A stretch of DNA of 64,000 nucleotides from contig NZ_JAYEZN010000001.1 of NCBI RefSeq assembly GCF_037031225.1, forward strand, positions 2,108,001 through 2,172,000, written 5' to 3'. Of the stretch, positions 28,377 to 42,694 are shown piece after piece (within the stretch, counting starts at the first letter, position 1; the number at the start of each line of letters is the position of its first letter). The notes beneath the pieces are model-generated. The model saw nothing but the letters and a program-made list of their open reading frames with translations, was not told the DNA's origin and searched no databases. The DNA is from Halorientalis sp. LT38 (GTDB lineage: Archaea > Halobacteriota > Halobacteria > Halobacteriales > Haloarculaceae). The position numbers and the translations under genes are program-made.

Positions 28377-29000
28377 ATGGGAGTGCTCGAAGACAAGTCC
28401 CGGGCTCGCCTCTTCTACAAGTACCTCTCGAAGGTGTACGACCGGATCAACCCGTTCATCTGGAACGAGCAGATGCGGACCGCGGCCATCGACCTGCTCG
28501 ACATCGAACCGGACGACCGGGTGCTGGACGTGGGGTGTGGCACCGGCTTCGCGACCGAGGGCCTGCTCTCCCGCGTCGATACGGTCTACGGGCTCGACCA
28601 GAGCCCCCACCAGCTTGAGAAGGCCTACGAGAAGTTCGGCAAACGCGACGGCCCCGTCCAGTTCCACCTCGGCGACGCCGAGCGGCTCCCCTTCCGCGAC
28701 GACGCCTTCGACGTGGTCTGGTCCTCGGGCTCAATCGAGTACTGGCCCAACCCGGTCGACGCCCTCAGGGAGTGTCGCCGCGTCGCGAAACCCGGCGGCC
28801 AGGTGCTGATCGTCGGCCCGAACTACCCGAACTCGACGATCTTCCAGAAGCTCGCCGACGCGATCATGCTGTTCTACGACGAGCACGAGGCCGACCGGAT
28901 GTTCCGCGAGGCCGGCTTCACCGCCTTCGAGCACTACACGATGGGCCCCGACTACAACCCCGAAATCGCGATTACTACCGTGGCGAAGGTGCCGGAGTAG
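28377..29000 (+). CDS. Class I SAM-dependent methyltransferase (quinone-type, MPBQ/MSBQ- or UbiE-like)
   Basis: The 207-residue protein has motif I RVLDVGCGTGFATEG, motif II DAFDVVWSSGSIEYWPN and the late GQVLIVGPNYPNST. The start LEDKSRARLFYKYLSKVYDRINPF resembles enzymes that methylate menaquinone or tocopherol precursors, and haloarchaeal copies are often labelled that way; the substrate here is inferred. Its last 14 codons and stop are repeated at 29161-29205 after a hairpin element, which shows that the 3' end was rearranged. Confidence 0.8.
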   Translation: MGVLEDKSRARLFYKYLSKVYDRINPFIWNEQMRTAAIDLLDIEPDDRVLDVGCGTGFATEGLLSRVDTVYGLDQSPHQLEKAYEKFGKRDGPVQFHLGDAERLPFRDDAFDVVWSSGSIEYWPNPVDALRECRRVAKPGGQVLIVGPNYPNSTIFQKLADAIMLFYDEHEADRMFREAGFTAFEHYTMGPDYNPEIAITTVAKVPE

Positions 29001-29012
29001 GAGAGTATTGTA

Positions 29013-29160
29013 CCGAGCGCGACCAACGGGAGCGCTCGGCTTTTTCGCCCACGTTTTTCGACGTTCACGAGAGCGGAACTCTCGTGAGCAAACCAGAAAT
29101 CGGAGATTTCTGGTGTGAGCGGTGGCGAGCGTAGCGAGTCACCCGAGGAGAAAAAGGTGG
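29013..29160 (+). repeat. Hairpin repeat element, copy A
   Basis: It begins with CCGAGCGC/GCGCTCGG (29013-29020 and 29032-29039), then the left core CTTTTTCGCCCACGTTTTT (29040-29058). Two more perfect 9-base hairpins follow: TCACGAGAG/CTCTCGTGA (29065-29087) and CCAGAAATC/GATTTCTGG (29093-29113). It ends with AAAAAGGTGG (29151-29160). Copies B and C share the left core and right end but have different hairpins. The first hairpin plus T-run could terminate the methyltransferase transcript. Confidence 0.8.
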
Positions 29161-29205
29161 AATCCGGAGATCGCGATTACTACCGTGGCGCAGGTGCCGG
29201 AGTAG
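29161..29205 (+). pseudogene. Displaced duplicate of the methyltransferase 3' end (14 codons plus stop)
   Basis: This 45-base segment reads in frame as N P E I A I T T V A Q V P E stop and matches 28956-29000 except for four bases: AAC/AAT, CCC/CCG, GAA/GAG (all silent) and AAG/CAG (K to Q). It starts right after the AAAAAGGTGG end of element copy A and ends four bases before the stop of the convergent pilin-like gene. It looks like the original gene end, displaced when the element arrived. Confidence 0.8.
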
Positions 29206-29209
29206 CCCG

Positions 29210-29674
29210 TCAGGCGACCGTTTCCAGCGTAGCCAGTTTTCTGCCGTCCAGATAGAGTGCCACGGTGACCTCCGAACCCTCGCCGGGGAGCGGTGCGTTC
29301 GTTCCCGCAAGCTCGAAACTCGCCCGCTCGCCGGCCGTCCAGCGCTCGTCGCCGGCGACGTTGACGGGGCCGGTCGGCCCCGAGACGAACCCGGTGGTCG
29401 CGAAGAAGGGGACCGGCGGCTGGTGGGCGAGCGGCTCGCCGTCGATCCGGACCCGGATTCGGAGGTCCGCGACGGACACGGCGTCGCCGCCGCTGTGCGT
29501 GAGGGTGATTCGGTTCGCGTCGGCGTCGACCTGCAACTCGAACGCGGTTCTCGTGGGGTCGTCGCCCGCGGGCGCGGCGCCGAAGGCGGTGGCCCCGACG
29601 ACCGAGGCGGCGAGGACGGCGACGAGGGTCAGGAGGGCGACGCCGACGACGGAACTGAGCGCGCGAGTCGACAC
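29210..29674 (-). CDS. Type IV pilin-like protein
   Basis: The 154-residue protein has a short basic N-terminus followed by the hydrophobic pilin helix ALSSVVGVALLTLVAVLAAS, with a likely prepilin peptidase site just before it. The exported part is beta-rich (ITLTHSGGDAVSVADLRIRV), like the haloarchaeal pilin N-terminal domain family (DUF1628 group). It would be assembled on the cell surface or act as a minor pilin. No secretion ATPase genes are near. The next gene upstream on the same strand is also exported. Confidence 0.8.
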   Translation of the reverse strand: MSTRALSSVVGVALLTLVAVLAASVVGATAFGAAPAGDDPTRTAFELQVDADANRITLTHSGGDAVSVADLRIRVRIDGEPLAHQPPVPFFATTGFVSGPTGPVNVAGDERWTAGERASFELAGTNAPLPGEGSEVTVALYLDGRKLATLETVA

Positions 29675-29722
29675 GCGGGAGGGTGGTCCCGGCTTCCCAC
29701 TTCAATCTCCGCTCGTCCCGGC

Positions 29723-30967
29723 TCAGTCCGCGACCCCGGTGACGGAGACGGTTTCGTTGCCGACGGCGGCCTCGACGCGGACGGACGCGTCGGGCTGGAG
29801 CGTCCAGAGGCGGCCGTTCTCGCCGGTCTGGCCGACGTACTGACCGTCGACCCTGATCCGGGCGTCCTCGGCCGCGCCGGTCACGGAGTCGCGGACGGTG
29901 ACCTGCATCGGACCGGTCGGGTGGCTGAGGTTCGCCTCGACGGTGAGGTCGGCGGTCTCGTTCGTCCCGGTGACGGTCTGCCCCGGCGGCAGGACGGAGA
30001 GCCGTTTCACCTGCTCTTCGAGGAAGACGTCGGCGCTGGCCCCGTCGAGGTAGGTCACGAGTTCGCCGTGGGCGTGGTTGATGTTGATCCGGTAGACGCT
30101 GTGGACGCCCAGCGGGACGACGCCGGGGCTCGTGACCCGGTTCTCGTCGGCCCAGGGGTACAGCCCGAGCGCGAAGTCGTAGGCGTTCTCGAAGTCGTCG
30201 TTGAACCGGTCGTCGCCGCTCTGTCGGTACCGCCCGTCGATGTACGCCTCGCGCTCGTAGGTCTGCTCGCCGCGAGCGATCTTCGCGAGGACGAGGCCGC
30301 CGTCGGTCGTCGACACGAACTGGTCGAGCCGACTGCGGTCGCCGACGAGCGCGCGCCGGATGCTCGTGCGCTGGTCCGTGGAGTAGAGCATCGTGGCCTG
30401 TCTGAGTTCGTCGAATCGGTCGTCGACTTCGGCCGGCACGGAGTAGCCCGTCGTCGTCTGCTGGATGGTCCGGATCCCGTTGCGAACCTCCCTGGCCCGG
30501 ACGTCGACGACGGCGAAGCGTTTGAACAGCGTCTCCGCCGTGATGCGGCCGGCGGTGAACTCACCGATCGACCGCCGCTGGTATCGCCGGATCGCAGTCG
30601 TCCGGTTCTCGATGTCGTCCGCGGCCCGTTCGAGGACGGTCACGCGCGCAGACGAGTTCGGGGCCGATCGGAAGGCCTCGACGGTGGTCTGGTCGACGAA
30701 CGACTCCTGCAGGCGGGCGCTGTCGATCGCGGCGGCGGCCCCGAGGTCGAGCGATGCGTTGCCGAACGCGCTGCGCTGTGGGTTGCCTCCGGGGAGCGCG
30801 AGGTAGTTACTGGTGTTCGCCGAGGTGGCGATCGGTGCCGTGGCGGGACGGGACGCGTCCTGCGCCGTCGGCTGGACGGGCGTCGCGGGTGAGAGGGCCG
30901 GCGTGCCGGCTGCCACCGTCGCGGTGAGCAGCAGCACGCAGAGGAGGACGGGGGATGCGTGTCGCAT
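29723..30967 (-). CDS. Haloarchaeal secreted protein with signal peptide
   Basis: The 414-residue protein starts MRHASPVLLCVLLLTATVAA, a Sec-type signal. The middle is helical (residues about 60-290: ARLQESFVDQTTVEAF, RAADDIENRTTAIRRYQRR). The end is a beta domain with VTVRDSVTGAAEDARIRVDG, a carboxypeptidase-regulatory or Ig-like fold. I recognise a haloarchaea-only surface family (DUF7094/DUF7096 group, from memory) but no function. It is divergent from the membrane-anchored winged-helix gene, and the two families are often neighbours. Confidence 0.75.
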   Translation of the reverse strand: MRHASPVLLCVLLLTATVAAGTPALSPATPVQPTAQDASRPATAPIATSANTSNYLALPGGNPQRSAFGNASLDLGAAAAIDSARLQESFVDQTTVEAFRSAPNSSARVTVLERAADDIENRTTAIRRYQRRSIGEFTAGRITAETLFKRFAVVDVRAREVRNGIRTIQQTTTGYSVPAEVDDRFDELRQATMLYSTDQRTSIRRALVGDRSRLDQFVSTTDGGLVLAKIARGEQTYEREAYIDGRYRQSGDDRFNDDFENAYDFALGLYPWADENRVTSPGVVPLGVHSVYRININHAHGELVTYLDGASADVFLEEQVKRLSVLPPGQTVTGTNETADLTVEANLSHPTGPMQVTVRDSVTGAAEDARIRVDGQYVGQTGENGRLWTLQPDASVRVEAAVGNETVSVTGVAD

Positions 30968-31154
30968 AGCGGATATATGGCACATGGACGTGGGACTACA
31001 AAAAACCCGACCGAGTGTGGTCGCACCGCCACACCTGTTACTCGAACTAACATTACATCGCCGCCTGAGGGCTGCTTAGACGTTTCACGGCCGCTCCTGA
31101 CGCTTTCTCACCTGATGGAAAGTGTTTTCCCCGAGGCGCGAGCAGAGACGACTA

Positions 31155-32336
31155 ATGTTGACGCGGGCACATGCCGCCCTGCTCGCCTCACTCGCCCTCC
31201 TCCTGACCGCCGGTCCCGTGGTCGGGCCAGCGCTCGCCTCCGGCCCCGTCGCGGACGGACCGGCGGTCGAACGCGACGCGGTCGCCGCCCAGACGGCCGA
31301 CGGGGACCTGCGGCCGCCGGACACCGACTTCCGGATCCAGGTGTCGCCGAACGGGGACGCCCAGTGGACGGTCACGCGGAACTACACGGTCGCGACGGAG
31401 GCCGAGCGAGCGGCGTTCAGGTCGATCGCACAGCGGTTCGAGAACGGCCAGGGACTGAAGACGCTCCAGACGGCCCGGCGGGCCAGCGACCTGGCCGCCG
31501 ACGCGACCGGCCGGGAGATGGGCATCACCGGCGTCTCGAGGGAGAGCGCCCTCGACGACGGCACCGGCGAACTCGTCCTCGAGTTCACCTGGACCGCCTT
31601 CGCCCGGCAGTCCGACGGGTTCCTCTACCTCGACGACGTGTTCGTCGCCGCCGACGGGACGTGGTTCCCCACGCTGGGGACGAACCAGTCGCTGACCATC
31701 GTGCCGCCGCGACCGTACGACCTCTACAGTGCGTCACCGGCGGGCTACCAGGTCTCGAACGCCTCGCTCCAGTGGACGGGCCAGCAGTCCTTCGATCGCG
31801 GCCAGCCGGCGGTCGTCTACGAGCGCCGCGGGGACGCGGGGTCGAACACCACCGGCGATCCGGTGTCGGGCGGGCTTCCACTGGTGTGGGTGTTCGCCGC
31901 CGCCGCGGTCGTCCTGGCCGTGCTGGTGGCGTACCTGCTCGCGACGCGCGACGTCGACCTGCCGTCCCCCGCGACGACCGCCAGTGGTAGCGACGCGGAC
32001 GACGGCCCGGGCGATGCGGCCTCCGTGGCGGGCGGCGCGGCCGCGTCGACGACCGACGGCGGGACGACGGCGGCCGACCCGGACCCCGGAGACGCCGACA
32101 TCGACGAGGAACTGCTGAGCGACGAGGAGCGCATCGAGCGGTTGCTCGAGCAAAACGGCGGCCGCATGAAGCAGGCCAACATCGTCGACGAGACCGACTG
32201 GTCGAACGCCAAGGTCTCGCAGTTGCTCTCGGCGATGGACAACGAGGGCCGGATCGACAAGCTCCGGATCGGTCGCGAGAACCTCATCTCCTTCCCCGAC
32301 GAGGACGTCACCGACGGCGGCGACGACGGCGTCTGA
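31155..32336 (+). CDS. Membrane-anchored protein with C-terminal winged-helix DNA-binding domain
   Basis: The protein has 393 residues. A signal-like N-terminus (HAALLASLALLLTAG) leads to an extracytoplasmic beta domain (FRIQVSPNGDAQWTVTRNY), then one membrane span (VWVFAAAAVVLAVLVAYLL, about residue 250), an acidic linker, and a C-terminal winged helix (RIERLLEQNGGRMKQANIVDETDWSNAKVSQLLSAM, about 320-375). This layout lets an outside signal reach DNA directly in one protein. It matches haloarchaeal DUF7345/DUF7343-type proteins. Its divergent partner across 187 bases is a secreted protein, a possible target. Confidence 0.82.
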   Translation: MLTRAHAALLASLALLLTAGPVVGPALASGPVADGPAVERDAVAAQTADGDLRPPDTDFRIQVSPNGDAQWTVTRNYTVATEAERAAFRSIAQRFENGQGLKTLQTARRASDLAADATGREMGITGVSRESALDDGTGELVLEFTWTAFARQSDGFLYLDDVFVAADGTWFPTLGTNQSLTIVPPRPYDLYSASPAGYQVSNASLQWTGQQSFDRGQPAVVYERRGDAGSNTTGDPVSGGLPLVWVFAAAAVVLAVLVAYLLATRDVDLPSPATTASGSDADDGPGDAASVAGGAAASTTDGGTTAADPDPGDADIDEELLSDEERIERLLEQNGGRMKQANIVDETDWSNAKVSQLLSAMDNEGRIDKLRIGRENLISFPDEDVTDGGDDGV

Positions 32337-32450
32337 GACGTCGCGTTCGGGCCGGACGAGGGCCCACGCGCGCTTCCGGGTCGGGGAATGAACGGTTTTC
32401 CGCGGTTTCGACGTTCGGAAACGTTTAACGGGGAGTAAATCCCAGTTCCG

Positions 32451-33251
32451 ATGAGCATGAAGATTCTCGTAACGGTAAAGGAGGTGGCGGAAGTCGAGGA
32501 CGAGTTCGAGATCTCGGGCGGTGATATCGCCGAGCAGTATCTCGAATACGACCTCAACGAGTGGGACGACTACGCGGTCGAGGAGGCCGTCCAGATCAGC
32601 GAGGACGTCGACGACGTGGAGGTCGTCACGGCCACGATCGGTCCGGAGCGGGCCGAGGAGACGATCCGGATGGCACTCGCGAAGGGCGCCGACCGCGCGA
32701 TCCGCGTGTGGGACGACGACCTCGAGGCAGACAGCTATCTCGACGTCGACTCGAAGGCCGAACTGCTGGCCGCGGTCGTCGAGGAGGAAGCCCCCGATCT
32801 GGTCCTGACCGGCGTGCAGGCCGGCGACGAGGCCAACGGTGCGACGGGCGTCACACTGGCCGAGAAGATCGGCTTCGAGTGGGCCGCAGTCGTCAACCAG
32901 CTCGATCTGGACGTCGAGGGCGGCGTCGCCAACGTCCACCGCGAACTGGAGGGCGGCGTCGAGGAGCTCACCGAGGTCGAGAGCCCCGCCGTGCTCACGA
33001 TCCAGTCGGGGATCAACGAGCCCCGCTACGCCAGCCTGCGCGGCATCCGCCAGGCCCAGAGCAAGCCGCTCGACGTCAAGACCCTCGGAGACGTTGGTCT
33101 CGACGCGAGCGTGCTCGAGAGCTCGCTGAACCAGACCGACCTGTACGAGCCCGAGTCCGAGGGCGACGCGACCGTCTGGAGCGGCGACGCCGAGGAGACG
33201 GCCGGGGAACTGGCTGCGTTCCTCCGCGACAAGGGGGTGGTCGAGGCATGA
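32451..33251 (+). CDS. etfB: Electron transfer flavoprotein subunit beta
   Basis: The 266-residue protein starts MKILVTVKEVAEVEDEFE and contains VLTGVQAGDEANGATGVTLAEKIG, and the ETF-beta signature region VLTIQSGINEPRYASLRGI. ETF accepts electrons from acyl-CoA dehydrogenases, one of which is encoded at 55859-57121. A TTTAA at 32424-32428 suggests a leaderless start; a second ATG at 32457 is two codons in. It overlaps etfA by four bases. Confidence 0.96.
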   Translation: MSMKILVTVKEVAEVEDEFEISGGDIAEQYLEYDLNEWDDYAVEEAVQISEDVDDVEVVTATIGPERAEETIRMALAKGADRAIRVWDDDLEADSYLDVDSKAELLAAVVEEEAPDLVLTGVQAGDEANGATGVTLAEKIGFEWAAVVNQLDLDVEGGVANVHRELEGGVEELTEVESPAVLTIQSGINEPRYASLRGIRQAQSKPLDVKTLGDVGLDASVLESSLNQTDLYEPESEGDATVWSGDAEETAGELAAFLRDKGVVEA

Positions 33252-34219
33252 GTGACGTCCTCGCCATCACGGAACACCGCCGCGGCGAACTGCGCGACGT
33301 GAGTCTCGAGATGGTCTCGGCCGGCCGCGACCTGGCCGACCAGACCGGCGGCGACCTGCACCTGGCCGTCGTCAGCGGCGACGTCGACGCGCTGGCCGAC
33401 GACGTCAACCGCGAGGGCGCCGACGCCATCCACACCGTCGAGTACGGTGAGGAGTTCAACCACGACGTCTACACGCAGGCCATCGAGCAGCTCTACGCAG
33501 AGGTCGACCCGCAGTTCCTGCTGGCGCCGAACTCGGTCAACGGGATGGACTACGCGCCCGCCGTCGCCGAGGGCCTCGCGCTGCCCCTGGTGACCGACGC
33601 GATCGACCTGGCCTACGACGACGGCCTCACCGTCACCCGCGAGGAGTACGGCGGCAAGGTCGAGACGACCATCGACGTCGAGGAGGACCACGCCGCGGTC
33701 ACGATCCGGCCCGCCGAGTGGCCCCAGGCCGAGGGGACCGGCGACGCCGCGATCGAGGCGTTCGACGCCGACATCGACGAGAGCGAGATCAAGTCCACCG
33801 TCACCGGCTACGAGGAGGTCGCCGGCGGTGACGTCGACATCAGCGAGGCGGACTTCCTGGTCTCGATCGGCCGCGGGATCGACGAGGAGGAGAACCTCCC
33901 GCTGATCGAGGCGCTGGTCGAGGCGACCGACGCCACGCTGTCGTCGTCCCGACCGATCGTCGACAACGGCTGGCTGCCCGCCAACCGGCAGGTCGGCCAG
34001 TCCGGAAAGGTCGTCACGCCCGACGTCTACATCGCCATCGGTATCTCCGGCGCCGTCCAGCACGTCGCCGGCATGAAGGGCGCCGACACCATCGTCGCGA
34101 TCAACACGGACCCCAACGCGCCCATCTGGGACCTCGCCGACTACGGCATCGAAGACGACCTCTTCGACGTCGTCCCCGCGCTCATCGAGGAGTTCGGCGG
34201 CGAAGTGCCGGACCTCTGA
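33248..34219 (+). CDS. etfA: Electron transfer flavoprotein subunit alpha
   Basis: The 323-residue protein has the C-terminal FAD-binding signature VGQSGKVVTPDVYIAIGISG followed by AVQHVAGMKGADTIVAINTDPNAPI. With EtfB it carries electrons to the quinone pool. The ATG overlaps the etfB stop (ATGA); longer upstream frames are shadows. The last nine codons, stop and 21 further bases are repeated exactly at 34338-34387 after hairpin element copy B. Confidence 0.96.
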   Translation: MSDVLAITEHRRGELRDVSLEMVSAGRDLADQTGGDLHLAVVSGDVDALADDVNREGADAIHTVEYGEEFNHDVYTQAIEQLYAEVDPQFLLAPNSVNGMDYAPAVAEGLALPLVTDAIDLAYDDGLTVTREEYGGKVETTIDVEEDHAAVTIRPAEWPQAEGTGDAAIEAFDADIDESEIKSTVTGYEEVAGGDVDISEADFLVSIGRGIDEEENLPLIEALVEATDATLSSSRPIVDNGWLPANRQVGQSGKVVTPDVYIAIGISGAVQHVAGMKGADTIVAINTDPNAPIWDLADYGIEDDLFDVVPALIEEFGGEVPDL

Positions 34220-34235
34220 TCGGCTAACTCTCTCC
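34186..34235 (+). repeat. 50-base direct repeat, left copy (etfA end)
   Basis: This segment covers the last codons of etfA, its TGA and 16 following bases, ending CTAACTCTCTCC. It is identical to 34338-34387. The two copies flank hairpin element copy B. Confidence 0.9.
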
Positions 34236-34243
34236 GTTTTTTC

Positions 34244-34333
34244 GCCGGCCGTGAGCGACGCGAGCGGCCGGCTTTTTTCGCCCACGTTTTTGCGCGAGTG
34301 GTCGCAGCAGGCGACCCGAGCGGAAAAAGGTGG
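34244..34333 (+). repeat. Hairpin repeat element, copy B
   Basis: GCCGGCCG (34244-34251) and CGGCCGGC (34265-34272) form a stem followed by the left core TTTTTTCGCCCACGTTTTT (34273-34291). A smaller hairpin GGTCGC/GCGACC (34300-34316) and the right end GGAAAAAGGTGG (34322-34333) complete it. It is the shortest of the three copies. Confidence 0.8.
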
Positions 34334-34337
34334 CATC

Positions 34338-34387
34338 CGAGGAGTTCGGCGGCGAAGTGCCGGACCTCTGATCGGCTAACTCTCTCC
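34338..34387 (+). repeat. 50-base direct repeat, right copy (displaced etfA end)
   Basis: This is an exact second copy of 34186-34235, including the etfA codons and stop, beginning four bases after the right end of element copy B. It is followed by ATTTTTGGCG, which may be the original terminator region of etfA. Confidence 0.9.
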
Positions 34388-34506
34388 ATTTTTGGCGCAA
34401 CGCGAATCCGGGGTGCGGTTTCGCTGCCTCCCGTCACCCGGTCCGCCTTGGTACCCTTCAGAAGCCAGCGCGCACCTTTATCCCCGTACCACTCCTCGGA
34501 CCTGCT

Positions 34507-35568
34507 ATGCGAGCAGCAGTACTCGAGGACCACGGCGAACCGCTGGCCATAGAGGACGTCGACGCGCCGGAGCCGGCGCCCCACGGGGTCGTCGTCGAGA
34601 CAGAGGCCTGCGGGATCTGCCGCAGCGACTGGCACGTCTGGCAGGGTGACTGGGACTGGCTGGGGATCGACGCCGGGGCGGGACAGATCCTCGGTCACGA
34701 ACCGGCAGGCCACGTCGTCGCGGTGGGCGACGAAGTCGAGACCGTCCGGGAGGGCGACCACGTCGCCATCCCGTTCAACCTGGGCGACGGGCAGTGCCCG
34801 GAGTGTCGGACCGGGCACTCGAACACCTGCGAGAACGGGATGCCGCTGGGCTTCATCGAACAGGCGCAGGGCGCGTTCGCCGAGCAGGTGCACGTCCCCT
34901 TCGCCGACCACAACGCGGTCGAACTCCCCGAGGGCGTCACCTCCGTCGACATGGCGGGGCTGGGCTGTCGGTTCATGACGTCGTTCCACGGGCTGGCCCA
35001 CCGCGCGGACGTGAACGCGGGCGACTGGGTGGCCGTCCACGGCTGCGGCGGCGTCGGCCTCTCCGCCGTCCACATCGCGGACGCGCTGGGCGCGAACGTG
35101 ATCGCGGTGGACCTGAAAGACGACAAGCTCGCCCAGGCCGCCGAGCTCGGAGCGGTCGAGACGGTCAACGCCGCCGAGACCGAGCGCGTCCCGAAGGCGA
35201 TCAAGGGGCTGACCGACGGCGGGGCGGCGGTCAGCGTCGACGCGCTGGGGATCGCCGAAACCAGCCGCAACTCCGTGCAGAGCCTGGGCAACCGCGGGCA
35301 GCACCTCCAGATCGGGCTGACGACGGAGGCGGAGAAGGGGTCGGTGTCGCTCCCGACCGACGCGATGGTGATGCAGGAGATCGAGTTCCTGGGTTCCTAC
35401 GGGATGCCGGTGTCGAGCTACGACGAGATCTTCCGGATGGTCGCGACGGGCAAGATCGATCCCAGTGCCGTGGTCTCGGAGACCGTGGGGCTGGAAGACG
35501 TCTCGGACAGGCTGGCGGCGATGACCGACTTCGAGACCGACGGGATCCCCGTCGTCGACTCCTTCTGA
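34507..35568 (+). CDS. Zinc-dependent alcohol dehydrogenase (MDR family)
   Basis: The 353-residue protein has the catalytic zinc ligands in EACGICRSDWH and LGHEPAGHVV, the structural zinc loop GDGQCPECRTGHSNTCENG, and the NAD(P) motif HGCGGVGLSAVHIA. Three of the four structural cysteines are present; the first position is aspartate. It belongs to the medium-chain reductases. Its alcohol or polyol substrate cannot be named. A haloarchaeal promoter lies in the 119 bases after the etfA repeat. Confidence 0.92.
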   Translation: MRAAVLEDHGEPLAIEDVDAPEPAPHGVVVETEACGICRSDWHVWQGDWDWLGIDAGAGQILGHEPAGHVVAVGDEVETVREGDHVAIPFNLGDGQCPECRTGHSNTCENGMPLGFIEQAQGAFAEQVHVPFADHNAVELPEGVTSVDMAGLGCRFMTSFHGLAHRADVNAGDWVAVHGCGGVGLSAVHIADALGANVIAVDLKDDKLAQAAELGAVETVNAAETERVPKAIKGLTDGGAAVSVDALGIAETSRNSVQSLGNRGQHLQIGLTTEAEKGSVSLPTDAMVMQEIEFLGSYGMPVSSYDEIFRMVATGKIDPSAVVSETVGLEDVSDRLAAMTDFETDGIPVVDSF

Positions 35569-35653
35569 GCGGCTCCGCCCGCCGAGGGCGACGGTGTGGG
35601 CCGAACGATGCGGTTCGTTACCCTCATTGACCCCTGGTCCTAACGCCACGGCA

Positions 35654-36496
35654 ATGGAGTATCTGGAGCGCCGACGGGCGCTCGTCGAGGAGCGGCTCGA
35701 AGCGGTCCTCGACGGGGTCGAGCCAGCGGAGCTGGCCGACGAGCTGGATCACGTCACGCTGTCGGGGGGCAAGCGGGTCCGCCCGACGGTGACGGTGCTG
35801 GTCTGTGAGTCGCTGGGCGGCGATCCGGAGGCGGCGGTCGACTACGCGGTGGGGATCGAACTCGTCCACAACGCCTCGCTGGTGATCGACGACATCATCG
35901 ACGACTCGGCGGTCCGCCGGGACGTCCCCAGCGCGTGGGCCGAGTTCGGCTACGGCCCGGCGATCATCGCCTCCGACGGGCTGCTGGGGGAGGCGTTCGC
36001 GCTGTTCTCGGCCGACGAGCGAGCGATGCAGGCCGTCGCGGAGTCGATGGTCGAACTCGGCGAGGGCGAGGCGACGGAGCTGGTCGCCCGGCCCGAAAAC
36101 GAGGCCGAGTACGTTGAGCTGGCCCGCCGGAAGACGGGGGCGCTGTTCCGCGCGGCGGCCGAACTGGGCGCCATCGCGGCCGACGCCGACGCCTACACGG
36201 TCGAGGCGCTCGGCCGGTACGCCGAGCGAGTGGGCATCGCGTTCCAGATGCGCGACGACGTGCTCGACGCGACCGCCGAGGCCGAGGACCTCGGGAAACC
36301 GACGGGCCACGACGAGGAGATGGACCGCCCGTCGTTCGTGCAGGTGACCGATCTCACGCCGGAGGAGGCCAACGAGCGCGCACGCGAGATGTCGGACGAG
36401 GCGCTGGCGTCGCTGTCGACGGTCGACGCGGCGGACTCGGAGGCGCTGGCGTATCTGGAGGACCTGGCCGAGTTCGTGGTCGTACGAGAGAGATAG
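35654..36496 (+). CDS. Polyprenyl (geranylgeranyl-type) diphosphate synthase
   Basis: The 280-residue protein has GGKRVRP, the first aspartate-rich motif in VIDDIIDDSAVRR and the second in FQMRDDVLDATAE. It condenses isopentenyl diphosphate onto an allylic substrate for archaeal lipid or quinone side chains. It is shorter than typical haloarchaeal IdsA proteins (about 340-350), so it may be a second, specialised copy. The start at 35654 was chosen over an upstream in-frame codon because MEYLERRRALVEERL matches the family start. Confidence 0.88.
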   Translation: MEYLERRRALVEERLEAVLDGVEPAELADELDHVTLSGGKRVRPTVTVLVCESLGGDPEAAVDYAVGIELVHNASLVIDDIIDDSAVRRDVPSAWAEFGYGPAIIASDGLLGEAFALFSADERAMQAVAESMVELGEGEATELVARPENEAEYVELARRKTGALFRAAAELGAIAADADAYTVEALGRYAERVGIAFQMRDDVLDATAEAEDLGKPTGHDEEMDRPSFVQVTDLTPEEANERAREMSDEALASLSTVDAADSEALAYLEDLAEFVVVRER

Positions 36497-36524
36497 CGAG
36501 GGCTCGCTCCGCTAGCCCTCGCTA
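36494..36524 (+). terminator. Hairpin that includes the stop codon of the prenyltransferase
   Basis: TAGCGAGGGCT (36494-36504), whose first three bases are the stop codon, pairs perfectly with AGCCCTCGCTA (36514-36524). More GC-rich hairpins (for example GAGCCGCG/CGCGGCTC near 36624-36645) fill the 198 bases before the next gene. No T-run follows. Confidence 0.45.
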
Positions 36525-36694
36525 CTCACGGGTCGCTTCGCTCTCACGGACTGCGTCCGTTCGAGTCGAGGTCGAAGACCTCGCACTCCCCGTTCGTGAT
36601 TAACGCGACTCTCCCTGCGGTCGAGCCGCGCTCCGCTCGCGGCTCCCGGTGGTCACCGCTCGCAATTTCCGAGGCCTCACTGCGTTCGTCCTCG

Positions 36695-36943
36695 CTACTG
36701 CATGAAATCCGGAAGATCCCGTGGATCGGTGACCTTGGCGGGATCGATCCCGTGGTCTTCGAGGAAGGCCACCTCGTCGCCGATGGCGGTGCCCTCGTCG
36801 TCGGTGTAGAGGGAGACGGCTTCGTCCAGCACTTCGAGGGCCTGCTGGCGCGTCTCGCCCTGGCTGACCACACTGGTCCCGACGTCGACCGCGGACCAGC
36901 CGTTGTCCTCTTCGATGAGACGGATCTCCCGACTATCGGTCAT
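36695..36943 (-). CDS. Orphan HicB-family antitoxin-like protein
   Basis: The 82-residue protein has the HicB partial RNase H-like fold (IRLIEEDNGWSAVDVGTSVVSQGETRQQALEVLDEAV). It is clearly related to the HicB at 54752-55021: both have EIRL, a VxxQG turn, ALxxLDEAVxL and GIDPA. No hicA lies on either side. I chose the start MTDSREIRL at 36943; the longer frame upstream is basic. It may act as a spare antitoxin or as a regulator. Confidence 0.75.
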   Translation of the reverse strand: MTDSREIRLIEEDNGWSAVDVGTSVVSQGETRQQALEVLDEAVSLYTDDEGTAIGDEVAFLEDHGIDPAKVTDPRDLPDFMQ

Positions 36944-37024
36944 GCCAGTAGGGTACGAGCGACGGTGGAATAAGCGTTCTGTCGGTGTCGGGCGGTGTAG
37001 CGGTGCGGTCGCGCGCACGATCGG

Positions 37025-38107
37025 TCAGGCGGAGGGACGCTCGGCCCGGTCCCGGGACTCGACGACGGCGAAGGCGAGCGTGCTGACGAGGCCGAGGATG
37101 GTCCCGCCCGTCAGGGTGGCCGCCAGGAAGGACAGGGTCACCTGATCGAGGAAGTAGGCGCTCATGCCGTAGAGGACGGCGGCGATGGCGACGACGTAGA
37201 ACGGGGCGTTGAGGTAGTGCCACTGGAACTCGCCGGCGAGGAACTCGTCGGTGACGCGGCCCAGGCTGGAGGTGATGCCGGCGGCGGCGAACCAGCGGAC
37301 GGCGCCGTTGACGACCGCCGAGACGACCTCGAGCACGCTCAACTCCGGGCGTGCGGACTGGGCGGCGTCCAGCGCCTGGAGTCCCTCGGCGCCGCCGATC
37401 AGCAGCAGCGCCGCCGCGACCACGGAGGTGATCAGCGTCACGCGACCGGCGTAGAACACCGACCGGAGGCGATCGATGGCCGAGTCCAGCGCCCGTTCGG
37501 CGCCGAGCCCCCGACCGAGGATGTACAGGCCGAGCAGCCCCGAGGTGAGGCCGAACACGGCGCCGGGGAGGCCGAGGTAGTCGGCGATGATGGCGAGGGG
37601 ATAGATGAGAAGCAGGATGCCGAGGGGGACGAGGATGGTCCCGCGAGTCTCGGGGTCGTCGAGGACCTGCTTGATCGTGTAATACATCGATTCGAGGTCC
37701 TGTGCCTGGCGGACGACGACGCGCTGGACGCCGTCGATGTAGACGCGGGAGCGGATGACGGGGACGACGGACTCGTCCTGGGCCCCGTCGGTGACGACGA
37801 TGGCGCGGACGTCGTCGCTGGCGGAGATGCTCGCGAGGACGGTGTCGACCTCCTCGCCCACCTTCCGGTTCGCCGCCACGTCGCTGCCGTCGACGCCGGT
37901 CACCGCGGCGACCTCGACGTCCTCGTCCTCGATGGACTTCTGGAGGTGCAGGCCCTCGAACAGCACGTTGACGTCGCTGTCCTCGGGGTCGGCGGTCGCC
38001 AGGGCGACGGCGGCCTCCTCGACGGCGTCGCGGCCGATCACCGGCGTCTCGAGGCCGGTCTTGCGACCGAGGTCGTCGTCGAGGTCCACGCACAGGACCA
38101 GCAGCAT
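37025..38107 (-). CDS. DUF373 family membrane protein
   Basis: The 360-residue protein has an N-terminal Toprim-like or P-loop-like soluble domain starting MLLVLCVDLDDDLGRKTG, with RAIVVTDGAQDESVVPVI, then about six membrane segments from residue 155 (GTILVPLGILLLIYPLAII onward). DUF373 is almost confined to archaea and has no known function; the aspartate-rich start is its hallmark. It lies 81 bases upstream of the orphan HicB on the same strand. Confidence 0.88.
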   Translation of the reverse strand: MLLVLCVDLDDDLGRKTGLETPVIGRDAVEEAAVALATADPEDSDVNVLFEGLHLQKSIEDEDVEVAAVTGVDGSDVAANRKVGEEVDTVLASISASDDVRAIVVTDGAQDESVVPVIRSRVYIDGVQRVVVRQAQDLESMYYTIKQVLDDPETRGTILVPLGILLLIYPLAIIADYLGLPGAVFGLTSGLLGLYILGRGLGAERALDSAIDRLRSVFYAGRVTLITSVVAAALLLIGGAEGLQALDAAQSARPELSVLEVVSAVVNGAVRWFAAAGITSSLGRVTDEFLAGEFQWHYLNAPFYVVAIAAVLYGMSAYFLDQVTLSFLAATLTGGTILGLVSTLAFAVVESRDRAERPSA

Positions 38108-38245
38108 CGTTTGCCCCTTCGCCGCTGTGGTTTATCTGCTTTTGGGCGGCGGGCCCGTGCCGAGGCTCGCCTCGCGACCCACCGGTCGACTCGCCGACCC
38201 GTTTCGCACGGCTTTTGCCGCTCGACGGGAAACGAAGGGTAACCG

Positions 38246-39238
38246 ATGATCTCGAAGGGCTGTGAACAGTGCGCCGAGGGCGGCAAGCTCGTCCTCTTCG
38301 TCTACGGCTACTGCGACCAGCGCGACTGTTTCTACTGCCCGCTCGGCGAGAACCGCAAGAACGTCACCGACGTGTACGCCAACGAACGCCTCGTCGAGGC
38401 GGACCATGACGTCATCGAGGAGGCCGAGCGGATGGACGCCCTCGGCGCCTCGATCACCGGCGGCGAGCCCCAGGAGGCGATGGAGCGGACCTGCCGCTAT
38501 CTCTCCCTCCTCAAGGACGAGTACGGCGAGGACTTCCACACGCACCTCTACACCGGCATCACGGGCGGGCGCGAGAACATGCGCCGCCTGAGCGAGGCCG
38601 GTCTCGACGAGATCCGTTTTCACCCACCGTTCGAGCAGTGGGGCGACCTGCACGGCACCGAGTGGGAGGACATCCTCTACGCCGCCCGCGAGGAGGGTCT
38701 CACTCCCGCGTTCGAGATTCCGGGCATCCGCCCGGAGGAAGAGTTCCTCGACTTCCTGGACGAGGGCGCCGCCGACTTCTGCAACGTCAACGAGTTCGAG
38801 ATGTCCGACGGGAACTACCGCCGGATGCAGGAGGAGGGCTTCGAGCTGAAGGACGGCCACATGAGCGCCGTCGAGGACACCCGCGAGGAGATCCTCGAGG
38901 TCATGGGCGACCACGAGAAGGTCTACTTCTGTACGTCCGTGTTCAAGGACGCCGCCCAGCACCGCCGCCGCCTGAAGCGCATGGCCCGGCAGATCCGGCG
39001 CGAGTTCGACGAGGTGACCGACGACGGCACCCTCGTCTACGGGAAGACCTGGGCCGAGCCCGAACGGTTCGAGGCCCTCGGTGTGCCCGAGGAGTTCTAC
39101 ACGGTGAAGTCGGACCACGTCGAAGTGGCGTGGTGGCTGCTGGAGGAGATGGTCGAGGACGGCGATCTGGAGAAAGGCGAGATCGTCGAGCAGTACCCGA
39201 CCTACGACGGGCAAGTGGTCGAGAGAACTCCGGTCTGA
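38246..39238 (+). CDS. Radical SAM protein with CX4CX2C motif (COG2108-like)
   Basis: The 330-residue protein starts MISKGCEQCAEGGKLVLFVYG and has the cluster motif CDQRDCFYC, with four rather than three residues between the first two cysteines. SITGGEPQEAMERTCRYLSL is the SAM-binding GGEP region. The family is annotated as pyruvate-formate-lyase-activating-like but no substrate is known. A second cysteine pair (CEQC) at the N-terminus could hold an extra metal site. It is a single gene, divergent from the DUF373 gene. Confidence 0.85.
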   Translation: MISKGCEQCAEGGKLVLFVYGYCDQRDCFYCPLGENRKNVTDVYANERLVEADHDVIEEAERMDALGASITGGEPQEAMERTCRYLSLLKDEYGEDFHTHLYTGITGGRENMRRLSEAGLDEIRFHPPFEQWGDLHGTEWEDILYAAREEGLTPAFEIPGIRPEEEFLDFLDEGAADFCNVNEFEMSDGNYRRMQEEGFELKDGHMSAVEDTREEILEVMGDHEKVYFCTSVFKDAAQHRRRLKRMARQIRREFDEVTDDGTLVYGKTWAEPERFEALGVPEEFYTVKSDHVEVAWWLLEEMVEDGDLEKGEIVEQYPTYDGQVVERTPV

Positions 39239-39379
39239 ATTCAGTGCAACAACTTCCCGGACGCTCGCCTCGTTGGCGCGGTTGCGAGGGCTCAGTGTAG
39301 AAAGTGCAGCTTGTATCCAGCTCTACCGCGATTATATCCATCTCACAAGAATAAGTATCGAGGAGACAATTCGACAGGT

Positions 39380-39559
39380 ATGGTCTCTCGCAAAAACGAA
39401 ATCGTGTTCGCGTGTGCTGTCATGGGGATCGTTCTCGCCGCACTGGTTGACGATGGGCTAGACGCTCCGGTATTCGTGTCGACCAGTGTCCTGGTTTTTA
39501 CCGCAGCAGTTCTCCCGATGGTTATCAATAATTACCTCGAGACAGTGGAGAGGGCTTGA
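39380..39559 (+). CDS. Small two-span membrane protein
   Basis: The 59-residue protein has a basic start MVSRKNE, two hydrophobic helices (IVFACAVMGIVLAALV and VSTSVLVFTAAVLPMVI) and a short polar end. A GAGGAGA ribosome-binding site (39360-39366) lies about 13 bases before the ATG, and ATTATATCC at 39331-39339 is a good TATA element. The DNA here is less GC-rich than its surroundings, so the gene may have been acquired. Function unknown. Confidence 0.65.
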   Translation: MVSRKNEIVFACAVMGIVLAALVDDGLDAPVFVSTSVLVFTAAVLPMVINNYLETVERA

Positions 39560-40044
39560 GTAGAGACGGTACGCCGGTAGATCCATTCGAACGCGGACTC
39601 TCGATCCCCGTTCAGTTCACACGCCTGCCGGCAGCTGTAGCGCGGAATTTGCGTGGGGAACCATCAGCCGCGCGAGTAGTGGGCCGCCGGTCCCGCTGGT
39701 AGCCGGCGGGAAGCCGTTCGAAAGGCGCCGACTGCCTTTCGTGACGTCGCCGGAAGGCTTCGACTTCTGGCTGTAAGCGGGAACTCGGAGAGTTCCCGCA
39801 ATGACGAGAGAGCGTCGCTCTCTCGGACCACGTCGGCGACGAAGCGAGTGCGGTTCACCGTCAGCGCGCCGCTCTGACGAGCCATCGCTCCGTGGTCACT
39901 CACGATGACACCGGACGCGAGGCGAAGCCGACCGTTCGTGACGTTTTTGTACTACAGTTTTGCGAGTAGTGAGGGACGCTCCGCGCCCCTCATTCGATGC
40001 GAACGGGCGGGAGGCGCCCGTTCGCATGGCGGGAGCCGACGGGC
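39560..40044. other. 485-base gap with hairpins, no gene
   Basis: The gap holds several perfect hairpins: CGGGAACTC/GAGTTCCCG (39778-39798), GAGAGAGCG/CGCTCTCTC (39810-39828), GAGGG/CCCTC (39971-39991), and the long one at 39997-40027. The stem and GGA-loop style matches that of the three hairpin elements, but their conserved cores are missing. Open frames here give non-acidic proteins with no resemblance to known ones. It may be a decayed repeat cluster. Confidence 0.45.
39997..40027 (-). terminator. 13-base-pair hairpin beyond a DUF502 gene
   Basis: ATGCGAACGGGCG (39997-40009) pairs perfectly with CGCCCGTTCGCAT (40015-40027) around GGAGG. It lies 17 bases beyond the stop of the DUF502 gene at 40045, a likely RNA 3'-end structure. 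Confidence 0.5.
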
Positions 40045-40755
40045 TCACGAGCCGTCCTGCTCGGGAGCACGCAGGTCGAAGGGGACGTCGGAGTCCTGTG
40101 GGTCCTTCTCGACTGCGACACCGAACGAGACGATCGAAGAGATCCCTTCTTCGACGCTGAGATCGACCGGGTGGACCTCGCTTTCTGAGATGTGAAGGAT
40201 GAACCCGCCCATGAAGGGATTCGGGCCCATCGGCATGAAGACGGTGAGCATATCGTCTTCGTCGGTCGCCGCCTCGATTCGCTCAGGGGGGTGCGACGTC
40301 TGGAACGCGAGCGAGTACGATCCCGCCTTCGGAAACTCGACGAGGACGACCTCCTGGAAATTCTGGGTGTCTCCCTCTACCAACATCGTGCTGATCTGAT
40401 CGAGGGGTCCGTAGATGGATCTGAACCCGGGAATGTGAGCGATAGTGGCGTCAAGTCCCTCCTTCAGGCGGTCGCCCCCGAAACGGCTCTCGGTGATCGC
40501 CCCGACGGAAAAGATGGTCAGGACCAACACGACGAGAGAGATGAGCTGGGGGACCAGGCGGGAGCGCATCCCCAACCCCTCCTGGATCGGGATCACTAAC
40601 GGATCCAACAGGCCCGAGAGGAAATTGACGATGAGCAGGAACAGGAACGCGGCTATCAGCACCGGCAGCACGATCGCGGTCCCGGTGAGGAGCGTTTGCC
40701 GGAGATAGTCGTCGATGCTGCCCTTCGTGCCCTGGCGCGTGTCACCCTTTGGCAT
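40045..40755 (-). CDS. DUF502 family membrane protein, second copy
   Basis: The 236-residue protein has membrane segments TGTAIVLPVLIAAFLFLLIV and LVPQLISLVVLVLTIFSVGA, the family sequence IAHIPGFRSIYGPLDQIS, and VFMPMGPNPFMGGFILHI. It is clearly the same family as 5693-6376 but diverged. The DNA is noticeably less GC-rich at third codon positions than neighbouring genes, which hints at more recent acquisition. Function unknown. Confidence 0.86.
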   Translation of the reverse strand: MPKGDTRQGTKGSIDDYLRQTLLTGTAIVLPVLIAAFLFLLIVNFLSGLLDPLVIPIQEGLGMRSRLVPQLISLVVLVLTIFSVGAITESRFGGDRLKEGLDATIAHIPGFRSIYGPLDQISTMLVEGDTQNFQEVVLVEFPKAGSYSLAFQTSHPPERIEAATDEDDMLTVFMPMGPNPFMGGFILHISESEVHPVDLSVEEGISSIVSFGVAVEKDPQDSDVPFDLRAPEQDGS

Positions 40756-40908
40756 AGGGTGCCGTAGTGAGCGGTGGCGGTTAAAGGGCGCCGACTCGGC
40801 CGATCGAGGCCTGCAGGTCGGACTACGGGCGGCCAGGAATCGGGGCGTTCCGGCAACAGCACGGGAGTGCGTCGCTCTCTCGACCGACGGCGAAAATGTC
40901 GAACCGAT

Positions 40909-41076
40909 CTAGTCCTTCATGTGCTGCAGCTGGTCCACCAGCTCGTCGGTGGACTTGTCGGACTGGAACTCGACGTCGCCGGTGTCGTGGTCCTCGTGGA
41001 CGTTGACGGCTTCGTCCTCGTCGGTGTCCACGTTCTGATCCTTCTGCTCGGATTCGTCGTAGCTTCCAAAGCCCAT
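40909..41076 (-). CDS. DUF5786 family small acidic protein
   Basis: The 55-residue protein starts MGFGSYDESEQKDQNVDTD, typical of this haloarchaea-only family, and ends STDELVDQLQHMKD. It is extremely acidic, soluble and probably partly disordered. Function unknown, but it is well conserved. The start at 41076 was chosen by family match; the longer frame upstream is basic. Confidence 0.82.
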   Translation of the reverse strand: MGFGSYDESEQKDQNVDTDEDEAVNVHEDHDTGDVEFQSDKSTDELVDQLQHMKD

Positions 41077-41188
41077 TGTATCCCATCCCAGCGGGGCCCG
41101 TTGTAAAACTGCCCCGGTCTCCCACCGCCGTGCGTGCGAGTCTCCCACACGCCGCGGGTATTTAGGGTCGGCCAGTCGAAGGCGACCC

Positions 41189-42037
41189 ATGCCACGCAGC
41201 GACGAATTCGCGACGGTGGACGGCTTCGAGATGCACTACTCGGCGTGGGGCGACCCGTCGGATCCGCCGGTGCTGTGCGTTCACGGGCTCTCCCGGAACG
41301 GGCGGGACTTCGACCCGCTGGCGCGGGCGCTGGAGGAGGACTACTACGTGGTCTGTCCGGACATGCCGGGCCGGGGGTGGAGCGAGTGGGCCGACGACCC
41401 CGCCGAGCGGTACACAAACACGGCGATGATCGAGATCCTGGTGGGCCTGTGCGACGAGCTCGGGTTCGAGTCGCTGCGGTACGTCGGGACGTCGATGGGT
41501 GGCGGGCTGGGGATGGCGCTCGCCGCCGGGCCGCTGGCCGACCGGATCGGAGACCTGGTGATCAACGACATGCCGCCGAATCCGGAGACCGACGCCGCGC
41601 CGGAGGCGCTGGGCCGGATCATGGAGTACGTGCCGAACCCGCCGACGGTCGAGACGATGTCGGAACTGGAGGCGTACTTCCGGGACCTCTACGAGGGGCG
41701 GTTCAGCGAGATGAGCGACGCCGAGTATCGCCGACTGACGATGACCTCGGCGCGGCGGACCGAAGACGGACAGATCGCGCCGCACTACGACCCGCGGATT
41801 CTGGTCGCGGACGAGGAGAGCGAGGACGACCCCGACCCGTGGGACGTCTGGGCGGCTATCGACGCTTCCATCCTGATCCTCCGCGGGATCGACTCGGACA
41901 TCCTGCCCGAGGAGCCGTTCGAGCGGATGCAGGAGGTCCAGCCGGACGCCGAGACGGTCGAGATCGACTGCGCCCACGCGCCGGCGCTGAACACGCCGGA
42001 ACAGATCGACCCGATCGAGGCGTTCTTCGCGGGGTAG
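41189..42037 (+). CDS. Alpha/beta hydrolase
   Basis: The 282-residue protein has VLCVHGLSRNGRDF (oxyanion HG), the nucleophile elbow VGTSMGGGLGMAL, an aspartate in ILILRGIDSDILP and the histidine in CAHAPALN, so the triad is complete. The cap region is helical. Family members include esterases, C-C hydrolases and haloperoxidases, so the substrate cannot be given. It is followed by hairpin element copy C. Confidence 0.88.
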   Translation: MPRSDEFATVDGFEMHYSAWGDPSDPPVLCVHGLSRNGRDFDPLARALEEDYYVVCPDMPGRGWSEWADDPAERYTNTAMIEILVGLCDELGFESLRYVGTSMGGGLGMALAAGPLADRIGDLVINDMPPNPETDAAPEALGRIMEYVPNPPTVETMSELEAYFRDLYEGRFSEMSDAEYRRLTMTSARRTEDGQIAPHYDPRILVADEESEDDPDPWDVWAAIDASILILRGIDSDILPEEPFERMQEVQPDAETVEIDCAHAPALNTPEQIDPIEAFFAG

Positions 42038-42063
42038 GCTGGCGGTGCAGTAGATTCGAACGT

Positions 42064-42181
42064 CCGGCGCGCCTCGCGCGCCGGTTCCCGCGAGCGACGG
42101 AGTCGCTCGCGCCTTTTTTCGCCCACGTTTTTCGAGGAGTGGTTCGCGCCGATGGCGCGAACCCGACGAAGAAAAAGGTGG
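42064..42181 (+). repeat. Hairpin repeat element, copy C
   Basis: It has CCGGCGCGC/GCGCGCCGG (42064-42084), CGCGAGCGAC/GTCGCTCGCG (42089-42111) followed by CCTTTTTT like an intrinsic terminator, and the left core TTTTTTCGCCCACGTTTTT (42114-42132). GGTTCGCGCC/GGCGCGAACC (42141-42163) and the right end GAAAAAGGTGG (42171-42181) complete it. The upstream gene end is not repeated beyond it. The right end abuts the promoter of the TRAM gene. Confidence 0.8.
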
Positions 42182-42220
42182 GTCGTAAGCGTTTAATCGC
42201 CGCTCTGACTAAGGGTTTTT

Positions 42221-42694
42221 ATGCCGGATTGTCCACTGGCGGACGACTGCCCCAGTTTTAGCGAGCGAATCGAGGGCATGGGGTGCCAGCACTACGGCGA
42301 CCGCGGTGGCGCCGAGTGGTGCAATCACTACAACCAGCCGATCAACGACCTGAAAGAACAGCCGGTCCAGCGGGGCGAGGAGGTCGTGGTCACGGTCGAA
42401 GACATCCACGAGAGCGGCGCGGGCGTCGGCCGCACCGAGGACGGCTTCATCGTGATGGTCGACGGGGTACTCCCGGAGGCCCGCTCGAAGGTCCAGATCA
42501 CGCGCGTCCACTCGAACCACGCCAAGGCCGAGGAGGTCGAACGGCTCCCGATGGAGGAAGCGGGGGAGGAAGACGACGAGGCGGTCGCGGAAGACGGGGA
42601 TGGCGAGGCCGAAGAAGACGAGGAAGCGGAGGACGCGGATCGGACGGAGGAGGACCCGCACCTGGGCAGTCGCGACAACTTCTGGGGCGGGTGA
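42221..42694 (+). CDS. TRAM-domain RNA-binding protein with N-terminal cysteine cluster
   Basis: The protein has 157 residues. The N-terminal 40 have cysteines and histidines (MPDCPLADDCPSF, GCQHYGD, EWCNHY) that could bind a metal or cluster. A TRAM domain follows (EEVVVTVEDIHESGAGVGRTEDGFIVMVDGV), then a long acidic tail. TRAM proteins bind RNA, and small archaeal ones act as RNA chaperones. GTTTAATC near 42199 gives a leaderless promoter directly after element copy C. Confidence 0.85.
   Translation: MPDCPLADDCPSFSERIEGMGCQHYGDRGGAEWCNHYNQPINDLKEQPVQRGEEVVVTVEDIHESGAGVGRTEDGFIVMVDGVLPEARSKVQITRVHSNHAKAEEVERLPMEEAGEEDDEAVAEDGDGEAEEDEEAEDADRTEEDPHLGSRDNFWGG

Follow-up and report, generated by a model that had tools for sequence, protein, structure and literature searches.

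Several previously described systems bear a partial resemblance to the element considered here. The e14 prophage of Escherichia coli resides in the end of the icd gene in such a way that the end in use is the one borne by the element, and the used and displaced ends differ by ten synonymous and two non-synonymous changes (PMC2973815). However, e14 is far larger, a prophage of 15 kb, and has a single target, whereas the present element is non-coding, about 60-160 nt long and found at dozens of target genes. Haloarchaea, typified by Haloquadratum, also possess short non-coding mobile repeats, namely the SMRs, MITEs and PATEs. The SMRs have inverted ends, an enigmatic mode of movement and no known parent transposon; neither they nor the PATEs produce a target duplication, the duplications of the MITEs follow their transposase, and displaced gene ends are not described for any of the three in that study (PMC3119063). 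The T-tract terminators of haloarchaea are a further point of comparison, given that the present element contains TTTTTC twice, once directly behind a hairpin, but ordinary terminators of this kind do not form a conserved, dispersed repeat family accompanied by gene-end duplicates. Finally, the insertion sequences IS1634 and IS1549 differ from the element in being coding, and no link of their direct repeats to gene ends is known. Their resemblance lies in the long direct repeats that they are reported to generate upon insertion, which are of variable length in IS1634 (cited in PMC2266710).

The locus under study lies in a 64,000-nt stretch of DNA from Halorientalis sp. LT38 (hereafter the window), in which the gene for a SAM-dependent methyltransferase is directly followed by a hairpin element and then by a second copy of its own 3' end (Table 1). 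An earlier note on this DNA had described a 45-nt repeat of the gene end with three silent differences and one K to Q change, and a repeat search and blastn recovered precisely this (E 6e-13): the inner and outer copies differ silently at the codon pairs AAC/AAT, CCC/CCG and GAA/GAG and non-silently at AAG/CAG. Adenine mutagenesis of the kind mediated by diversity-generating retroelements was rejected at this locus, since the outer copy reads T, G, G and C at the four positions of difference, none of them a template adenine. Two further copies of the element are found in the window, of which the one behind etfA is likewise flanked by a duplicated gene end.

Table 1. Features of the methyltransferase locus and of the other element copies, in coordinates of the window
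Feature	Position	Strand	Remarks
SAM-dependent methyltransferase gene	28377..29000	+	207 aa; clear orthologue in nearly all 57 relatives searched
Methyltransferase gene end, inner copy	28956..29000	+	last 14 codons and TAG, in frame
Hairpin element behind methyltransferase	29001..29160	+	160 nt; about 50 nt of two extra hairpins within the usual 55-65 nt core
Terminator-type hairpin of this element	29013..29040	+	directly before T-tract
Element family signature TTTTTCGCCCACGTTTTT	29041..29058	+	
Element right end AAAAAGGTGG	29151..29160	+	imperfectly complementary to CCCACGTTTTT
Methyltransferase gene end, outer (displaced) copy	29161..29205	+	41/45 identical to inner copy; begins at the base right after the element end; in-frame TAG retained, finishing at 29205
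Type IV pilin-like gene, convergent	29210..29674	-	stop (TCA) from 29210, 4 nt from outer copy
etfA gene end and 3' region, inner copy	34186..34241	+	56 nt
Second element copy, behind etfA	34242..34333	+	
etfA gene end, outer copy	34338..34393	+	55/56 identical to inner copy
Third element copy (core)	42117..42181	+	no detectable gene-end duplicate

In the element-free relatives G003, G001 and G007, as well as in G008 and G027 from outside the genus, the methyltransferase gene end directly adjoins the pilin gene, which places the outer copy at the native position of the gene end, as had been supposed. The result that would have told against the note, with relatives lacking the element carrying the inner version and none of them matching the outer copy, was not obtained: the outer CAG is the codon of element-free G001 and G006, while the outer AAT, CCG and GAG are those of element-free G008, a member of another genus. 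Alignment of both copies to the orthologues did not single out a source for either. The AAC, CCC and GAA codons of the inner copy are those of element-free G006, to which it is overall slightly nearer (41/45) than the outer copy (39/45), a point that counts against the explanation preferred below; against G001 and G003 the two copies tie. With four differences in 45 nt being too few, no donor can be named at this locus. An ACT codon common to both copies is present in no other sampled orthologue, implying that the two copies descend from closely related lineages and that a donor, if there was one, was a near relative. Taken by themselves, the four differences would be insufficient grounds for the claim that the inner end came in with the element from a homologous allele; the locus is compatible with it, and its support comes from the family as a whole. 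The methyltransferase is followed by the element with an outer copy in four of eight congeneric genomes, and its end is also duplicated next to an element of the same type in other genera (L011, L012, L025).

The taxonomic family comprising Haloarcula and Halorientalis harbours a dispersed, hairpin-forming "terminator cassette" without coding capacity, and pattern searches established that the element is one of its copies; these are situated immediately downstream of stop codons and tRNA ends. In Halorientalis sp. LT38 the signature TTTCGCCCACGTTTTT was found at 18 places in the genome, with no match in the reversed control, CGCCCACGTTTTT occurs 138 times across the eight Halorientalis genomes, and TTTTCGCCCACGTTTTT is carried by 57 of 293 sampled genomes of the order, mostly from the same family and including named Haloarcula, Halomicrobium and Halosimplex. 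The pattern also matches some bacterial genomes and nine viral contigs, and recognised bacterial and non-haloarchaeal loci were excluded from the combined duplicate test described below. A variant family with TTTTTGGTCCAGATTTTT instead of the CGCCCACG signature (L008, L170 of G004) shows the same behaviour, gene-end duplicates included. All 142 unique cores (53-71 nt) fold as one hairpin between the fixed ends CCCACGTTTTT... and ...AAAAAGGTGG. Like the ends of MITEs, those of the element form terminal inverted repeats: CCCACgTTTTT and AAAAAgGTGGG pair, save for one fixed mismatch, in 142/142 cores, a count that is partly by construction as the end motif was itself used to gather them. The inner stem covaries, its pairs changing among GC, CG, TA and AT with 94-96% remaining paired in these cores. 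A second hairpin module, with an AGCATCC-stem-GGTTC organization, is often encountered upstream of the core (L031, L037, L038, L043, L048, L095), and at L082 its first bases form the TAG stop codon of the gene.

As in intrinsic or T-tract terminators, the element presents a hairpin and then a T-tract behind a gene. A hairpin adjoining a T-tract (exact stem of at least 5 bp, no more than 3 nt away) was detected in 166 of 230 elements, as against 19% of random control stretches. The T5C motif terminates efficiently (95%) in vivo in Haloferax (PMC7237163), and on these sequence features a terminator role for the element appears likely. Comparison of positions 28900-42400 with the Rfam 15 covariance models yielded chance-level matches alone, which lay outside the elements. 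In at least 21 of the approximately 80 copies devoid of a duplicate the right end directly abuts the stop codon of a convergent gene, no base intervening (L033, L037, L070, L075, L080, L088, L114, L131, L154 and others), such that the reversed element starts directly after TAA, TAG or TGA; at tRNA genes it starts with CCA.

Between about one third and two fifths of the element copies abut a partial copy of the end of their own gene. A gene- or tRNA-end duplicate adjoins the right end of the element in 43 of 123 scored copies from the eight congeneric genomes (three of the 43 being tRNA ends) and in 29 of 67 copies from other genera. Given that among 1695 random positions taken from these loci only 12 show such a duplicate, the one at the methyltransferase is not a product of chance. 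In the 68 coding duplicates the matched coding part spans 20-141 nt (median 45.5), and duplicates are always located at gene or tRNA ends; this sets the element apart from MITEs, with their short target duplication of fixed length, and the presence of duplicates sets it apart from the SMRs of Haloquadratum. The host genes, as judged from their translations, are housekeeping genes such as argF, etfA, hisH, a NuoI-like gene and gatB. The element with an outer copy stands behind argF in six of the eight genomes and behind etfA in six as well, and a given orthologous site can be occupied in one congener yet empty in another. The same genes are targeted in different species, often at different junctions, with at least four different right junctions between species in argF. 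Searches of the accessible literature, from which many subscription journals are absent, turned up no account of gene-end duplicates next to an element of this kind.

These junctions bear on the most literal form of the earlier note's picture, in which the element brings a donor gene end with it and is joined, in the manner of e14 at icd, inside the resident end by a one-step reaction of an end-specific, integrase-like kind. The right junction is at GGTGG, within a few bases, in all duplicates, which accords well with such a reaction. Partial copies of tRNA 3' ends, a classic mark of integrases, also occur beyond the element, directly before the AGCATCC hairpin module, at L050, L055 and L121. 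However, every element copy that was looked at is about 60-170 nt long and hence too short to encode an integrase, the targets are dozens of unrelated genes, and the junctions fall at different places in the same gene; one-step joining is a rather improbable account. Tandem arrays of two or three near-identical [gene end + element] units were also observed (L077, L079, L082, L096, L099, L136; a further array, in G302, is suggested by evenly spaced motif matches), and are likely to have arisen by unequal crossing-over across the duplicate. Such arrays could suggest that the duplicates arose from tandem duplication of this unit by slippage or unequal crossing-over, after which the outer element was lost and the copies underwent gene conversion, and the clumping of differences noted below would be in keeping with conversion. 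Against this, duplicates with a single element pass directly into the native sequence downstream, where a second element is lacking, and the process would yield neither a silent bias nor foreign alleles; we regard it as improbable.

Clues to the history of the duplicates come from the differences between their inner and outer copies. Differing codons in the 68 duplicates are synonymous or otherwise in a ratio of 104:52. In the Halorientalis set, comprising 41 pairs, synonymous changes account for 57 of 80 codon differences (57:23), and in another set of 29 pairs, which does not overlap with the first and derives mostly from other genera, they account for 61 of 93 (61:32). With neutral decay 27% would be expected to be silent (P 3e-16 and 4e-15 for the two sets), and with a gene copy changing only silently while the other decays 43% (P 2e-7 and 3e-6); these P values are optimistic, as codon differences were treated as independent and orthologous sites may share history. 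Where the homology reaches the stop codon it is the same in 37 cases, different yet still a stop in 11, some of which could reflect a duplicate boundary inside the stop codon, and lost in two. Furthermore, the differences are clumped, the longest clean run covering 0.57 of the length where 0.44 would be expected (P 2e-4), a result that persists with codon phase preserved, and the copies thus look like recombinant mosaics. The silent-bias argument that the earlier note had made for a single locus therefore generalizes to both sets, each of which rejects neutral decay, with stops that are swapped but intact. As the differences mostly accord with coding constraint, the diverged outer copies are displaced, once functional gene ends that were shaped as coding sequence in a lineage in which they still closed the gene, a gene end with silent-biased differences being supplied by the element much as in e14.

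Consistent with exchange between lineages, some outer copies are nearer to the allele of another species than to their own gene. The clearest cases are the etfA outer copy of G003, which matches G005 at 30 of 34 positions and its own gene at 20 of 34, and the argF outer copy of the first unit of G005 (56 against 53 of 62); the hisH outer copies of G005 (57 against 54 of 62) and of the second unit of G002 (22 against 17 of 24) show the same preference. Along with the silent bias, the swapped stops and the clumped differences, these copies strongly support the arrival of an incoming allele with the element, but not as a universal rule, since 18 of the 68 duplicates are identical, indicating that plain duplication on insertion also occurs.

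An alternative that we consider unlikely would make insertion responsible for the entire pattern: the element would insert like a transposon, with a long and variable target duplication at transcript ends, and the copies would then drift, the outer one as junk. The identical pairs, with fresh cases such as 64/64 at L059 and 74/74 at L031, speak for it, as do the direct repeats reported for IS1634 and IS1549 (PMC2266710, as above), but the silent bias and the kept stops rule out neutral decay of the outer copy, and the copies looked at, all of them short, included no coding parent. As the sole explanation of the diverged pairs, transposon-like insertion is refuted by the silent bias and the retained stop codons; it is probably the founding step, and thus part of the story rather than all of it. 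It is also conceivable, if very improbable, that the outer copy works as a guide or template sequence lying after a structured RNA (similar to an omega-RNA or a diversity-generating retroelement), with the silent changes protecting the inner copy. The copy does begin exactly where the covarying hairpin ends, and many differences (33 of 89) fall within its first 12 nt, but there is no Rfam match, many pairs are identical from the junction onward, and the copies extend to the stop codon, far past the length of a guide.

The best explanation, to which we assign about even confidence on comparative evidence, is that a terminator cassette with a gene-end duplicate subsequently moves by homologous recombination with the duplicates as arms. 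Upon first arrival at a gene, the element would duplicate some 20-140 nt around the transcript end, a step for which we favour insertion at terminators, either aimed at gene ends or tolerated only there. The simplest guess for this founding event is that the element inserted at the transcript end and thereby generated a long target duplication, and a separate event is required as identical duplicates exist and junctions differ; likewise, recombination alone is insufficient to account for the spread, given that the right junctions differ between species at a single gene, argF. Later, the unit [gene end - element - gene end] would pass between strains and species by homologous recombination; recombination between species of haloarchaea is described as continuous (PMC4500145). 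The mosaics suggest that the two gene-end copies might act as the homology arms, in which case the inner end would be the incoming allele, wholly or in part, and the outer end the resident one. The host gene would never be broken during such a transfer, and the gene would equally remain intact if recombination between its two end copies were to delete the element. Against this explanation it may be held that intragenomic gene conversion could also make such mosaics, and that the identical duplicates need no foreign allele; the comparisons, moreover, were all run between species.

Tentatively, then, these elements could be non-coding mobile terminator cassettes that lack a recombinase of their own, and whose flanking gene-end copies serve as homology arms through which host recombination carries them, with the gene unbroken, into the corresponding housekeeping gene in other strains and species. 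If this is true, a tiny element without genes would be able to settle behind essential genes and to spread at little cost to the host. The displaced gene end would then constitute a readable fossil of each allele exchange, and recombination between haloarchaeal species might be traced gene by gene.
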